From: Hyphomicrobiales bacterium
GTDB lineage: Bacteria > Pseudomonadota > Alphaproteobacteria > Rhizobiales > Rhizobiaceae
Length of the DNA stretch: 64,000 nt
Assembly: GCA_900472175.1 (NCBI GenBank)
Contig: UCHD01000004.1
Coordinates: 526,726 to 590,725 of the forward strand
Direction of reading: 5' to 3'
The translations under genes and the position numbers were made by a program. The notes under the pieces are model-generated. The model ran no database searches, had not been told where the DNA came from, and worked only from the letters and a program-made list of their open reading frames with translations. The stretch's first letter is position 1, and every line of letters begins with the position of its first letter. Of the stretch, positions 5,725 through 10,761 are shown piece by piece.

Positions 5725-6441
5725 TCACAGCTTGCGGATGATCGCGGCGGCAAGGGGCGGGGCAATGAACTGCAGTAACCGCAGCAGCTTCACCTTGCCG
5801 ACGTGAATGCGCGACTGCCGGGTGGAAAGCGAACCGGCAATCGCGGCTGCTGCGGCGGCCGCGCTGATCTTGCCACGGCCGCGTCCCGCCGACATTGGCG
5901 CATCGACCATTGGCAAGGCGATATCGACGGCCCGCACGGATGAACCATTGAATTGCGCGGTGATGGCGTCGGAAAACATCCGCAGGCCCGCTTTCGTGGC
6001 GCTGTAGACGGCTGACGTCCTTTTGGGATAGCTGGCAAGCGCGGAGCCGACATTGACGATGACAAAGGCGCGGCTTGGCACATCGGGAAGCAACAGTCGC
6101 GACAGAATCAGCGGCGCAACCAGATTGGTTTCGATCTCGGCGGCGATCTGATCAATGCCATAGCCGGGATCGTCGAACCTGAGATTGTGCTGGATAGCCG
6201 CATTGTTGATCAGGCCGTCAACCGGACCTTGTGCCTTCACCGAGGCTGCAAAGGCGGAGATCGCTGCCCGGTCGTTTAAGTCAAGCGCGTGAACATCGAT
6301 GCGCTGATCCCGCTGTTTCAGGGCGTCAAGCCGGATGCGATCACGTCCGAGCGCGATGACATCGTGTCCCGCGCGGGCCAGCTGCAGCGCAATTTCCCAT
6401 CCGATTCCCGAACTTGCCCCAGTGACGACATACCGTGCCAT
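5725..6441 (-). CDS. Short-chain dehydrogenase/reductase
   Basis: A 238-residue classical SDR. The nucleotide-binding TGASSGIG is at 7-14, NNAA at 79-82, and the catalytic Ser133, Tyr146 and Lys150 (YSATK) are in place. GRDR after strand beta-2 hints at NADPH. The start is ATG 6441 (MARYVV) behind AAGGGGAA; an upstream ATG would add 19 non-conserved residues. DltE/acyl-reductase-like members act on lipid or acyl groups, but the substrate is unknown. It is divergent from the Crp/Fnr gene, and a TTAACC-N2-GGTTAA palindrome lies 56 bases upstream of its start, mirroring the site before the methyltransferase. Confidence 0.92.
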   Translation of the reverse strand: MARYVVTGASSGIGWEIALQLARAGHDVIALGRDRIRLDALKQRDQRIDVHALDLNDRAAISAFAASVKAQGPVDGLINNAAIQHNLRFDDPGYGIDQIAAEIETNLVAPLILSRLLLPDVPSRAFVIVNVGSALASYPKRTSAVYSATKAGLRMFSDAITAQFNGSSVRAVDIALPMVDAPMSAGRGRGKISAAAAAAAIAGSLSTRQSRIHVGKVKLLRLLQFIAPPLAAAIIRKL

Positions 6442-6491
6442 GCTATCTATTCCCCTTGTTGGAGATGTGAGCATGCAGCAGGGGGACGGCA

Positions 6492-7109
6492 ATGGCATTA
6501 ACCGGGGTTAACAGGCCGGGGCGGGCGGCGATTGCGCTGTTTGAGCGTATTGCCGGAGAGCCGCTGGCGCAGACGGATCGTTTGACCGGCGCGATCCAGC
6601 TTTGTCTGGTGAAACCCGGCGAAAGTATCTTCAGCCAGGACGATCCGCACCCGTATCTCTATGTTGTCGAGAGCGGCCTGTTGAAATTCACATATCTGCG
6701 ATCGGACGGCGAGGAATGGATCAAGTCTTTTATTGTTGAAGGCCAATTCTTCGCCAGCCTCTCGGCGCTCGCGCCGGCAGGGTGCGCGAGCTTTTCGGCA
6801 ATTGCGATCGAGGCCTGCCGGCTGGAAAGAATTCCGTTCGTGGCACTCAGAGACCTCGCAGATACCGATCTTGGATGGTCGCGAATGATCCGGACTGCCT
6901 TGATGATTTTTGGAGAACGCAAGGAGCGCCGCGAGCGCCAGTTTTTGACGCTTGATCGCGAAGAGCACTATCGCTCGCTGGTCAACGAGGAGCCGGACCT
7001 GGTTGCGCGGGTGCCGCAGAAGGACCTCGCGAGCTATCTCGGCATTACCGCCGTTGGCCTCAGCCGTATTTCCGCACGTGTCCGGGCCGAAGCTTCACGT
7101 TCGACTTAA
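6492..7109 (+). CDS. Crp/Fnr-family transcriptional regulator
   Basis: A 205-residue regulator: an N-terminal cNMP-binding-like beta roll (about residues 30-118, PGESIFSQDDPHPYLYVVESG), a dimerisation helix (~125-155) and a C-terminal winged helix with VPQKDLASYLGITAVGLSRI (174-193). The Arg-Ser phosphate-binding cassette of true cAMP receptors is not evident, and the N-terminal Cys cluster of Fnr is absent (only Cys38, 98 and 109), so the signal is unknown. The ATG at 6492 has AGGGGGA upstream. Two identical-armed palindromes overlap its first codons and its stop codon. It probably controls itself, the divergent SDR gene and the downstream methyltransferase. Confidence 0.9.
   Translation: MALTGVNRPGRAAIALFERIAGEPLAQTDRLTGAIQLCLVKPGESIFSQDDPHPYLYVVESGLLKFTYLRSDGEEWIKSFIVEGQFFASLSALAPAGCASFSAIAIEACRLERIPFVALRDLADTDLGWSRMIRTALMIFGERKERRERQFLTLDREEHYRSLVNEEPDLVARVPQKDLASYLGITAVGLSRISARVRAEASRST
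6498..6511. promoter_or_regulatory. Palindrome TTAACC-GG-GGTTAA, site 1
   Basis: Perfect 6-base arms separated by two bases, covering codons 3-7 of the Crp/Fnr gene and lying 56 bases upstream of the SDR start on the other strand. The same arms recur at 7106-7119. Probable operator for the intervening regulator; a CtrA-like factor (half-site TTAACC) is the alternative. Confidence 0.65.
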
Positions 7110-7119
7110 CCCGGGTTAA
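7106..7119. promoter_or_regulatory. Palindrome TTAACC-CG-GGTTAA, site 2
   Basis: Perfect 14-base palindrome covering the Crp/Fnr stop codon and ending 57 bases before the methyltransferase start, nearly the same distance as site 1 from the SDR start. Same arms, different two-base centre. Confidence 0.65.
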
Positions 7120-7176
7120 TGCACCGGGATCAGTCATGGGCGATACCGGGTTCCGTTCAAAACGGGAGCCCAAACC

Positions 7177-7752
7177 TTGACCAACAGCAATACCGCATCG
7201 GACACGATGCTATTTTTCCGCTCGTGGCTGACAAGACCGCTGGAGGTCGCGTCGATTGCGCCGTCGAGCAAATGGCTTGCTGCTGCGATGACCGCCGAAG
7301 TCGGACCGGTTCCCGGCGGCGTGCTTGAGCTTGGGCCGGGCACAGGCATCTTTACCCGCAGGCTTCTGCAGGATGGCGTTGCCGAGGACAGACTTGTCCT
7401 AGTGGAGCGCAATCCTGTATTTGCCACGCTGTTGCGTCAGCGGTTTCCCAAGGCGACCTTGATCGAGGAGGATGCGCGCCATTTGCGCCTGCCCTCGGCG
7501 GGCAGGATTGGAGCCGCCATCAGCGGCCTGCCATTGCTGTCCATGCCGAAACCGGTTGTGCAGGATATTCTGGCAGCAGTCTTCCGCCATCTGGCCGATG
7601 ATGCTTGCCTGTTTCAGTTTACCTACGGGCCGCGTTGCCCCGTTCCGGCAACGGTTCTTCAAGCGCTTGACCTTGAAGCATCCTTCCGGCGATGGGTGCC
7701 GCTTAATCTGCCGCCAGCCAGCGTTTACCGCATCCGGCGCCGGAGCATTTGA
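7177..7752 (+). CDS. PmtA-like phospholipid N-methyltransferase
   Basis: A 191-residue Rossmann methyltransferase of the COG3963 type. The SAM motif is VLELGPGTGIFT (49-60), preceded by FFRSWLTRPLEVASIAPSS, a block typical of the membrane-associated PmtA enzymes that methylate phosphatidylethanolamine towards phosphatidylcholine. Other PmtA-family members are known as ornithine-lipid methyltransferases, so the exact lipid is open. The start is TTG 7177 with GGGAG 8 bases upstream; an ATG at 7207 would still keep the core. The second TTAACC palindrome lies upstream, suggesting control by the Crp/Fnr neighbour. Confidence 0.82.
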   Translation: MTNSNTASDTMLFFRSWLTRPLEVASIAPSSKWLAAAMTAEVGPVPGGVLELGPGTGIFTRRLLQDGVAEDRLVLVERNPVFATLLRQRFPKATLIEEDARHLRLPSAGRIGAAISGLPLLSMPKPVVQDILAAVFRHLADDACLFQFTYGPRCPVPATVLQALDLEASFRRWVPLNLPPASVYRIRRRSI

Positions 7753-7842: not shown

Positions 7843-9126
7843 TTACATATGGCCGCCAGCGCCTTCCAGCGTGGCGTGGTCGTCGCCCGGATGGGTGAAG
7901 AGCTTGCCGTTTTCGGCCCAGAGAACGGCAAGGATCGTCACCGCGCCGAACACGGCGAAACCGGCGAACAGCGGCTGAACGGTGCCATTGAACATCTGGC
8001 CGACCAGACCGCCGAGCAAAGCACCGCCCGTTGTCGAGACGAAACCGGTGATGGCGGTTGCCGTTCCCGCGACATGCCCCATCGGCTCGAGGCTGATGGC
8101 AGTGAAGTTGGTGGCGATAACCGCAAAGAACATCAGGAGCACCGAGAACAGCACATAGCTGAACAGGAAGCTCGGCGTGCCTGCAAGGGCGACAACCAGG
8201 CCCAGAATCGACAGCAACGTGAACAGGATCATCGAGCCATGCGAGATCCGGCGCATGCCGAAGCGGCGGACGAAGTAGCCGTTGGCGAAGTTGGCAACCG
8301 CGATACCGCCGGCGGTGGCAGCAAAGGCGATCGGCAGCCAGTCCCCAAGGCCGTAGACCTCGCCGAACATCTGCTGAACGCTCATGATGTAGGCACAGAT
8401 GACGGCGGTGAACAGCGTCATGCCGATCATGTAGCCGCAGGTGACGCGGTTGGTCAGCACCGTGCCGAAGCCCGAGATGACGGTCGCGACCGACAGCGGC
8501 AGGCGTTCGGCAACCGGCAGCGATTCGCGCATGCGGATCAGCGCCCAGAAGAACAGCACTGTTCCGGCAATTCCGAGCAGGATGAAGATCCAGTGCCAGT
8601 TGGCGTAGATGATGATCGCCTGGCCGACGGACGGTGCGACGATCGGGATGATCATGAAGACGATCATCACATAGGACATCACGCGTGCCATCTCACGGCC
8701 ACCGAAGCAGTCGCGCACGATCGCCATCGTCGTGATACGCACGGCGGCTGCGCCAATGCCCTGGATGAAGCGCATGACAAGCAGCATCTCGAAGCTGCCG
8801 GAAAGGGCTGCGGCAAACATGCAGACGGCATAGAAGGCGAGGCCGCAGAGCAGCACCCGGCGGCGGCCGAACGCGTCCGACAGGCTCCCGAAGACGATCT
8901 GCGAGCAGCCGAAGCCGAACATGAAGACGCCGATGACCCACTGGGTATCATTGGCGTTCTGAACGCTGAGCGATTGGCCGATGTTCGGCAGAGCCGGCAG
9001 CATGATGTCGATCGCCATCGCGACGCTGGCGGTCATGAGGGCGATGGTGATGACGAATTCGAAGAAGCCAAGGCCTATTCGTGACGAGCCGATATTCTCG
9101 ACGTGTTCAGTGGTGGTGGCGGACAT
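7843..9126 (-). CDS. MFS drug-efflux transporter, Bcr/CflA type (second of pair)
   Basis: A 427-residue inner-membrane proton antiporter with about 12 hydrophobic segments. Family signatures are DIMLPALPNIG after TM1, QIVFGSLSDAFGRRRVLL in loop 2-3 (MFS motif A) and RFIQGIGAAA in TM4. Bcr/CflA members export bicyclomycin, chloramphenicol or sulfonamide-like compounds; the actual substrate is unknown. It sits 39 bases downstream of a clear paralogue (compare NFTAISLEPMGHVAGTA with NFNAMAMEPLGHVAGTA), indicating local duplication. The C-terminus is hydrophilic and His/Asp-rich (HPGDDHATLEGAGGHM). The ATG at 9126 is preceded by AAGACATTCATAGG-type sequence with a modest ribosome site. Confidence 0.93.
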   Translation of the reverse strand: MSATTTEHVENIGSSRIGLGFFEFVITIALMTASVAMAIDIMLPALPNIGQSLSVQNANDTQWVIGVFMFGFGCSQIVFGSLSDAFGRRRVLLCGLAFYAVCMFAAALSGSFEMLLVMRFIQGIGAAAVRITTMAIVRDCFGGREMARVMSYVMIVFMIIPIVAPSVGQAIIIYANWHWIFILLGIAGTVLFFWALIRMRESLPVAERLPLSVATVISGFGTVLTNRVTCGYMIGMTLFTAVICAYIMSVQQMFGEVYGLGDWLPIAFAATAGGIAVANFANGYFVRRFGMRRISHGSMILFTLLSILGLVVALAGTPSFLFSYVLFSVLLMFFAVIATNFTAISLEPMGHVAGTATAITGFVSTTGGALLGGLVGQMFNGTVQPLFAGFAVFGAVTILAVLWAENGKLFTHPGDDHATLEGAGGHM

Positions 9127-9165: not shown

Positions 9166-10401
9166 CTAAACTGCAGGATTGTGAGGGCGGAAAAGCTTGC
9201 CTTTTTCGGCGATGAGCACGAATGCAAGCCCGACCAGCGCAACGCTGAGGAAGCCGATGGCGAGTGGCGTGATCGTGCCGTTGAACGCTTGGCCGATCAA
9301 TGCGCCGATGGTGGCGCCCCCGATTGTCTGGGTAAAGCCAAGGACCGAGGATGCAGTGCCCGCGACATGGCCGAGCGGCTCCATCGCCATGGCGTTGAAG
9401 TTCGAACCGATCAATCCGAACTGGAACATGGCGCAGGCATAGAGCACGGCAAACAACCAGAAGGGAAGCGCGCCGGAAACTGACGTAGCGACCCAGATGA
9501 CGCTCACAATCACGAAGCCGATCAGTGCGCCATGCGACAGGCGGCGCATGCCGTAACGCTTGACCATCCGGGAATTGGTGAAGGAGGCAAGCGCCATCAT
9601 GCTTGCAAACCCGGCGAACACCAGCGGAAACCAGTGACCCAACCCGTAGATGCCGACGAGAATCTGTTGCGCTGAGTTGATGAAGCCGAACAGCGAACCG
9701 AACAGAAAGGCCGCAGCCAGAGAGTAACAGAGCGAAACCCGGTTCGTCAGGACGATGCGGAAACCCGCCAGGATGGATGTGACAGTGAACGGCCGGCGGT
9801 GCTCGGCAGAAAGCGTTTCGGGCAGGCGCAGCATCACTACTGTCGCAACAGAGATCGCAAACAGGCAGATGACCACGAAGATCATGTGCCATTCGGCAAA
9901 GATCATGATCAACTGACCGGCGCTCGGCGCCATGACCGGCACGATCATGAACACCATCAGCACCAGCGACATGACTTCCGCCATCATCCGGCCGCCATAG
10001 ACGTCGCGGACAATCGAGACGGTGATGACGCGGGTGGCTGCAGCGCCGATCCCCTGGATGAAGCGTAGCGCGAGCAATCCGGTGAACGAGGGAACAAAGA
10101 CGATGGCGAGCGCGCAAAGCGCATAGAGACCAAGCCCGCCGAGCAGGGGCAGCTTGCGGCCGAAGCGATCCGACAACGGGCCGAAGACAAGCTGGGCGCA
10201 GCCCATGCCGATGAGATAGGCAGTGATGACGTACTGGCGGGTATTTTCATCGACGACGCCAAGGCTGGCACCGATTTCCTGCAGGCCGGGCAACATGATA
10301 TCGATCGAAATCGCGTTGACCGCCATCAACATGGCCATCAGTGCAATGAACTGTGGTTTGGGCAAAGCCGGGAGACCCGGCGCTTGGGATGGTGCGGTCA
10401 T
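9166..10401 (-). CDS. MFS drug-efflux transporter, Bcr/CflA type (first of pair)
   Basis: A 411-residue, 12-TM transporter and the promoter-proximal gene of the pair. It carries SIDIMLPGLQEIG, QLVFGPLSDRFGRKLPLL (motif A) and RFIQGIGAAATRV, the same three landmarks as its neighbour. The start is ATG 10401 with AGGA 8 bases upstream; the 14 extra codons to 10443 lack a ribosome site. The two genes probably form one transcript ending at the hairpin near 7800. Two related pumps in tandem could form heterodimers or differ in substrate; nothing in the sequence decides. Confidence 0.93.
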   Translation of the reverse strand: MTAPSQAPGLPALPKPQFIALMAMLMAVNAISIDIMLPGLQEIGASLGVVDENTRQYVITAYLIGMGCAQLVFGPLSDRFGRKLPLLGGLGLYALCALAIVFVPSFTGLLALRFIQGIGAAATRVITVSIVRDVYGGRMMAEVMSLVLMVFMIVPVMAPSAGQLIMIFAEWHMIFVVICLFAISVATVVMLRLPETLSAEHRRPFTVTSILAGFRIVLTNRVSLCYSLAAAFLFGSLFGFINSAQQILVGIYGLGHWFPLVFAGFASMMALASFTNSRMVKRYGMRRLSHGALIGFVIVSVIWVATSVSGALPFWLFAVLYACAMFQFGLIGSNFNAMAMEPLGHVAGTASSVLGFTQTIGGATIGALIGQAFNGTITPLAIGFLSVALVGLAFVLIAEKGKLFRPHNPAV

Positions 10402-10761
10402 GGGATATTCCTGGCGGATGTGCCTGGCGTCTGAAACTGTCAACTGTAACGTTGCCGGTCCGGATCAGGCGCTGATGAAACTGTGGGAGCCTACATTCGA
10501 GGGATTGAAAGTGCTGCTCCGAAGCGCTTTCAAAAAGGCAACCGGCTGAACCGGTCTGAGATGATTGCCGGCAAACCAGGTCGGCGATTGTCGAGATTGG
10601 CGCGCGGCGGCGAAACGATATGAGGCCCATCTGAAAACGCAGAAGCCTGCACCGCGTGTGCGTACTCTCAATACCGCGACTGGTTTATGACAGTCGCGAA
10701 TATTTTGTTTTACTGATAAAGGTCACCCAACATTAGGTGGTCAGCACGGTCTTCGAGAATC
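10402..10761. other. Gene-free stretch upstream of the MFS pair
   Basis: About 360 bases holding the promoter region of the MFS operon. I see no convincing coding frame, RNA gene or clear operator; the short frames across it lack ribosome sites and family resemblance. Confidence 0.6.

Follow-up and report, generated by a model that had tools for sequence, protein, structure and literature searches.

The operators of several described regulators bear comparison with the palindrome TTAACC-NN-GGTTAA considered here. CRP binds the operator TGTGA-N6-TCACA, and the half-sites of CtrA, an alphaproteobacterial cell-cycle response regulator that is to be expected in Rhizobiaceae, resemble TTAACC. Closest among the systems compared is the PrfA box of Listeria, tTAACanntGTtAa, which serves a member of the Crp/Fnr family and, in the excerpted text of PMC3443378, is centred at -41.5. 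The same position is given, in an excerpt of PMC7349173, as the one at which a lone activating FNR site in E. coli is most often found, whilst an excerpt of PMC7200025 reports the CtrA motif of one species as TTAA-N7-TTAAC.

In the stretch of DNA analysed here (64 kb, hereafter the window), the palindrome occurs at 6498-6511 (site 1, TTAACCGGGGTTAA, spacer GG) and again, with identical arms, at 7106-7119 (site 2, TTAACCCGGGTTAA, spacer CG), as a first-pass annotation of the same DNA had described. These two strandless putative operators bracket a plus-strand gene (6492..7109) for a Crp/Fnr-family regulator of 205 residues. Site 1 had been said to overlap the start of this gene; it covers codons 3-7, just downstream of the ATG at 6492, and leaves the ATG itself free. 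Site 2 overlaps the stop codon TAA (7107-7109). On the minus strand a short-chain dehydrogenase/reductase (SDR; 5725..6441, PF00106, E 2e-32), the presumed target of site 1, begins 56 nt from that site, and on the plus strand a methyltransferase resembling the PmtA/OlsG phospholipid/ornithine-lipid N-methyltransferases (7177..7752, from a predicted TTG start), the presumed target of site 2, begins after a gap of 57 nt. The mirrored distances claimed earlier are thus confirmed, as measured to two predicted starts, 6441 (minus strand) and 7177; the list of open reading frames also holds a longer SDR frame, from an ATG at 6498, which overlaps site 1.

Membership of the regulator in the Crp/Fnr superfamily follows from a match to Pfam PF00027 (E 5e-14) and from its predicted cNMP-binding fold with a helix-turn-helix. 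The AlphaFold model (mean pLDDT 93.4), with a long helix at residues 127-153 and C-terminal helices, matches CRP and FNR structures, the top Foldseek match being a CRP (E 2e-13, TM 0.74 by query length). At E 0.01 no Pfam helix-turn-helix model was obtained for the window protein, and for a relative (L006) HTH_Crp_2 scored below its cut-off. Across 35 aligned regulator sequences the N-terminal cysteines of FNR are absent, and the only columns with cysteine in more than five sequences are those of window residues 99, 105, 109 and 153. The letters around residues 88-104 are conserved in the same alignment and presumably differ from those of the cAMP pocket of CRP, which makes cAMP doubtful as the ligand. 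Relatives with 64-73% identity are encoded on plasmids of Ensifer, Pseudorhizobium banfieldiae and strain NT-25.

Compared by operator, not by protein sequence, the nearest likeness is to PrfA. According to the excerpt of PMC3443378, the PrfA box is likewise a 14-bp palindrome with an N2 spacer, the core TTAAC and a centre at -41.5, and one box may be common to a divergent gene pair; it differs at one position per arm, the sixth base, which is A there and C in TTAACC-NN-GGTTAA, so that the conserved motif departs from tTAACanntGTtAa in its letters whilst matching it in position. The window regulator further differs from PrfA in being proteobacterial and local, with adjoining targets. The first-pass annotation had suggested that the sites define a new binding class, an overstatement that missed the PrfA box: one differing position per arm points to a sister specificity. 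With its operator close to the PrfA box, the locus presents a specificity that is new but of a kind already known. To FNR/FixK class II promoters (TTGAT-N4-ATCAA) the likeness is one of superfamily, fold, site length and, in the excerpted text of PMC7349173, placement at -41.5; the arms differ (TTGAT as against TTAACC), as do the N-terminal cysteine cluster and the recognition helix, which reads TPVGLSRI or TAVGLSRI here and TVETISRL in the FNR of solved structure that was aligned. No TTGAT-N4-ATCAA operator was found at up to one mismatch in ten loci (L006, L033-L041), and a search of the same ten for FNR-, CRP-, PrfA- and CprK-type boxes returned, besides the site itself, one TTGAC-N4-GTCAA with a single mismatch (L034). 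CRP shares the cyclic-nucleotide-binding fold and helix-turn-helix and supplies the top structural match, but its operator is different. In the open-access literature searched we found neither the TTAACC-NN-GGTTAA box nor, among the papers listed, a description of this regulator subfamily, including in combination with DUF2141/SDR or PmtA; subscription journals and regulon databases lay outside the search, and a prior description is possible. The annotated records seen for the family say merely 'Crp/Fnr family'.

The first-pass annotation had made its proposal depend on conservation of the arms around orthologues of the regulator, and such conservation was found when the check was run. When a species-genome collection was scanned, 154 relatives of the regulator were confirmed, and the 80 best were retained; these loci, from alpha- and gammaproteobacteria, encode proteins with 44-69% identity to the first sequence of the query (L033). 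In 76 of the 80 (77 of 82 when L126 and L127 are added) the 900 nt upstream of the regulator contain a site with at most two mismatches, and in 73 such a site is present within 200 nt (42 exact, 28 with one mismatch and 3 with two), compared with 13 of 1313 equal-length random segments from the same loci, none of them exact. No site within two mismatches was present in the 900 nt searched at L055, L118, L121, L124 and L127; L055 and L127 have a three-mismatch match at the usual place, and L121 lies near a contig end. Among family genomes, 19 of 394 sampled carry the regulator at E <=1e-20, and a site adjoins it in 19/19, the sole site being one with two mismatches at L172, L177 and L183. The locus sets overlap: 7 of the 19 family loci sit on contigs also represented among the 80, with L177-L182 on the contigs of L054, L051, L047, L045, L049 and L057, and L006, L034, L035 and L036 share contigs with L053, L058, L067 and L068, respectively. 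All loci were found via the regulator, and relatedness therefore inflates these simple counts, which the dereplicated test described below remedies only in part. At L006 and L033-L036 (38-46% identity, other genera or families) the regulator ATG follows the site after 4-5 nt and the SDR is divergent, the arrangement at L035 being the same except for one mismatch in the site. More distant proteins lack this association: the paralogues L037-L040 have no site within one mismatch (L037 has one match with two), and an exact site is present at none of 26 further paralogue loci (L007-L032), three of which hold a two-mismatch match somewhere. In Vibrio, Colwellia and Pseudoalteromonas, too, relatives of the regulator are accompanied by the same arms, so that the association of regulator and operator spans two classes and many marine and soil bacteria.

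These loci also share a promoter geometry on the SDR side. From the 77 sites in the 82 loci, L071, L073 and L074, which lack a divergent SDR hit, and L072 and L082 (SDR 873 nt distant) were excluded; the 72 SDR-side sites were aligned and thinned at 70% identity to 56, from which the window is absent. The hexamer TANNNT lies exactly 22 nt past the site in 44 of these 56 dereplicated loci (expected 1.3), and no other spacing between 8 and 45 has it in more than 4; its first position is T in 49/56, its second A in 56/56 and its sixth T in 47/56. The stretch from site to SDR is otherwise mostly unconserved, save for T or C and then G or T directly after the site, and the letters following the site (xTGxC) are weakly -35-like. 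When the hexamer is taken as -12 to -7, the invariant A being -11A, the centre of the site falls at -41.5, the position of a class II activator. The window itself has partial hexamers at this spacing. The predicted -10 of the SDR promoter, CATGCT (6470..6475, minus strand), 22 nt past site 1, keeps -11A and -7T and not -12T, whilst that of the methyltransferase promoter, GATACC (7142..7147, plus strand), 22 nt past site 2, keeps -11A without -12T or -7T; both are weak. By arithmetic from these elements, transcription would start at 6463 (minus strand) for the SDR and at 7154 (plus strand) for the methyltransferase, each site being centred at -41.5, with leaders of 22 nt and 23 nt, respectively. 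The mirrored distances are accordingly accounted for by a shared geometry, i.e. a -10-like hexamer 22 nt past each site and a leader of 22-23 nt. In eight Erythrobacter/Sphingomonadaceae loci (L096, L102, L107, L108, L111, L114, L115 and L119) the site lies 36 nt from the SDR start, so that, given a -10 at 22 nt, the mRNA would have almost no leader.

We consider it very probable that the regulator is a local activator of the Crp/Fnr type and that each flanking transcription unit has a class II operator of its own for it. Bound as a dimer to TTAACC-NN-GGTTAA at -41.5 of two promoters, it would substitute for most of the -35 element and recruit RNA polymerase, so switching on the divergent SDR gene from site 1 and the downstream PmtA/OlsG-like methyltransferase gene from site 2. 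Its action would be local, because each flanking unit has a site and there is no other within one mismatch genome-wide. That the regulator binds both sites and instead represses both genes is unlikely; whilst a site at -41.5 does overlap the -35 hexamer, and the weak xTGxC letters follow it, a poor -35 combined with a -10 spacing fixed at 22 nt is what is expected of activator-dependent class II promoters, and -41.5 is, in the excerpts of PMC7349173 and PMC3443378, the usual place of the single activating FNR site and of the PrfA box.

Local activation of each unit from its own site is consistent with the way in which sites accompany genes. In all seven family genomes that have the methyltransferase (G000, G006, G024, G978, G1028, G1079 and G1154, i.e. 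six of the 19 plus G006), TTAACCCGGGTTAA lies between regulator and methyltransferase, with GATACC, AATACC or AATATC 22 nt past it, whereas in 13/13 family genomes with the regulator and without the methyltransferase no site with up to two mismatches was found within 250 nt downstream. Conversely, P. banfieldiae, NT-25 and G978 lack site 1, show no SDR within the flanks retrieved, and keep site 2. On Ensifer plasmids site 1 is exact in L160 and carries one mismatch in L162, L163, L164 and L167; in L168, L169 and L170 it is exact, has one mismatch and is exact, respectively, L170 not being independent of L160. At two Psychrosphaera loci (L071 and L074), an exact site lies between a DUF2141-VTT operon and the regulator, with AAATAT or GAATAT at 22 nt, and a one-mismatch site lies between the regulator and a downstream SDR, with TAACAT or TATCAT at 22 nt. 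This SDR is more distant (33% identity to that of L033), and by sequence comparison the two loci are a separate bracketing of the regulator, with other genes. A small membrane gene at L069, L070 and L109 likewise has its own site (2, 2 and 1 mismatches) and a -10 at 22 nt; it is MauE-like, below the Pfam cut-off, in the copy examined (L074). The earlier proposal, in which a single regulator has matching operators at both flanking genes, gains support from these comparisons, given the conserved arms and a site 2 that tracks the methyltransferase. In the genus of the window the module appears dispensable and in decay, as judged from lesions in two genomes: in G006 (locus L004; regulator identity 96%) the spacer of site 1 (1499-1511) is one base shorter and the methyltransferase (2177-2750) matches in two frames, and in G024 (locus L005) the SDR is reduced to a remnant match whilst site 1 persists. 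On the Ensifer Corn53 plasmid (L162) the SDR matches as two end pieces and the sites persist.

The identity of the binding protein can be approached through the recognition helix, which reads TPVGLSRI in 42 of the 80 loci and TPVALSRI in 18. An altered arm, GGTTCA, occurs in 8 of the 9 loci with the helix TPQALSRI and in 0 of the 71 others, which suggests that recognition helix and operator arm vary together, although a single change within one clade could account for this link. Paralogues with the helix TPVSLSRI (L037, L038 and L040) are without the site. An unlinked transcription factor binding the sites, with the regulator a bystander, is in our judgement very unlikely. The pairing of protein and site comes from sequence comparison, and in 25 genomes of relatives 16 of the 29 exact places lie away from the module and 13 at it (a reversed control pattern gave 8), as might suit such a factor. 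However, TANNNT at 22 nt was found at none of the 16 off-module places on either strand (0/32), and xANNNT in 3/32, about chance, so that these places look like chance occurrences; moreover, site and regulator occur together across two classes, and the helix and arm changes coincide. In 6 of the 25 genomes there is no exact site, the site at the module being imperfect. The window regulator itself is hence the probable binder of both sites, and the joint variation of helix and arm in one clade would make Crp/Fnr specificity open to study by simple swaps.

Counts across whole genomes bear on the local character of this activator and on the two readings that fare worst. The genome of the window (5.46 Mb) holds the palindrome at two places with no mismatch and still only those two at one mismatch, so that a larger regulon was not seen there at that threshold; the reversed control pattern gave 0 exact places and 3 at one mismatch. 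Exact places across the 26 genus genomes examined, which sum to about 156 Mb, number 6 (reversed pattern 3); 5 of them lie at the regulator locus, within G000, G006 and G024, the three genomes that encode a close homologue of the regulator. The sixth, in G001 (L041, 1501-1514), lies 72 nt upstream of an unrelated ORF, which we take to resemble a transposase. Binding of the TTAACC arms by CtrA, which the first-pass annotation had offered as the alternative, has in its favour the resemblance of the arms to CtrA half-sites and the expected presence of CtrA in Rhizobiaceae; we reject it as highly improbable on grounds of spacing, taxonomic range and the lack of genome-wide sites. Five of six exact genus sites at a single locus are unlike the pattern of a global regulator, and in gammaproteobacteria, too, these arms accompany relatives of the regulator, as in Vibrio, Colwellia and Pseudoalteromonas, which are not known to possess CtrA. 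Furthermore, the shared TTAA(C) letters are spaced differently, with N7 in the motif excerpted from PMC7200025 and N6 in the window (TTAA-N6-TTAA), where TTAA-N7-TTAAC does not occur at the sites. That the twin sites arose by chance or by repeat-derived duplication, without function, can practically be discounted: the 64 kb window taken alone is not decisive (2 matches at up to two mismatches as against 0.40 expected, with 6 of 100 shuffles also reaching 2), but the genome-wide counts, the conservation beside diverged relatives and the fixed -10 spacing already contradict it.

The local activator might also act on its own gene, and the first-pass annotation had proposed autoregulation through the first codons of the regulator. 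In the relatives a promoter-like element for this is rare: the regulator ATG usually follows the site at a distance of 1-7 nt, and TANNNT at 22 nt occurs on the regulator side in only 2 of the 56 dereplicated loci. Both are from Pseudoalteromonas (L103, at 3911, and L104, at 3923), the regulator there starting 76 and 58 nt from the site, respectively, and direct autoactivation, with one site serving both directions, is possible in these two. In 13 further loci with partial regulator-side hexamers the hexamer falls inside the regulator's own reading frame. For the window, binding at site 1 may also affect synthesis of the regulator, to judge from its position over the early codons.

As to what the activator would control, the usual module in relatives comprises the SDR (73/80 loci), a VTT-domain protein (64/80) and a DUF2141 protein (30/80). 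These counts come from single-linkage clusters of ORFs, with VTT and DUF2141 assigned on cluster representatives, and are low, since the clustering missed SDRs shown by tblastn at L048, L054 and L058. The window methyltransferase matches the NCBIfam models OlsG (E 6e-26, 91.4 bits; curated cut-off 350 bits) and PmtA (E 2e-24, 85.9 bits; curated cut-off 250 bits) below both cut-offs, in alignments that cover most of both profiles. Together, the SDR, the VTT-domain protein and the PmtA/OlsG-like methyltransferase suggest that the module may act on envelope lipids. More broadly, we think it somewhat more probable than its contrary that the regulators form a widespread alpha- and gammaproteobacterial Crp/Fnr subfamily with its own PrfA-box-like operator, acting as a self-contained switch of adjoining units with a likely envelope or membrane-lipid output. 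A widely distributed regulator family would in that case be assigned an operator, a promoter geometry and a small regulon, and acquiring a single 14-bp site would be enough for a new gene to join the switch. The units switched would be SDR, VTT and DUF2141 in many marine species, and SDR with a lipid-type N-methyltransferase in Ensifer-like bacteria. The recruitment of the methyltransferase with site 2 in the latter, and the separate bracketing in Psychrosphaera, would make this a clean system for the study of how a local activator recruits a gene.

Several minor observations concern the surroundings of the module. In Colwellia (L113) an anonymous ORF is preceded, at 111 nt, by a further exact site (604-617) that has TAATAT at 22 nt, and regulons outside the window's own genome may thus be larger. 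In the window, two adjacent ORFs on the same strand (7843-9126 and 9166-10443) presumably encode Bcr/CflA-type MFS transporters. On plasmids of P. banfieldiae and NT-25 (L159, L165 and L166), a (2Fe-2S) protein and a xanthine dehydrogenase-like molybdopterin subunit are encoded after the regulator-methyltransferase pair. NT-25 carries the pair on two plasmids, and nickel/cobalt efflux genes are found near it on NT26_p1 and on NT-25 plasmid 2.
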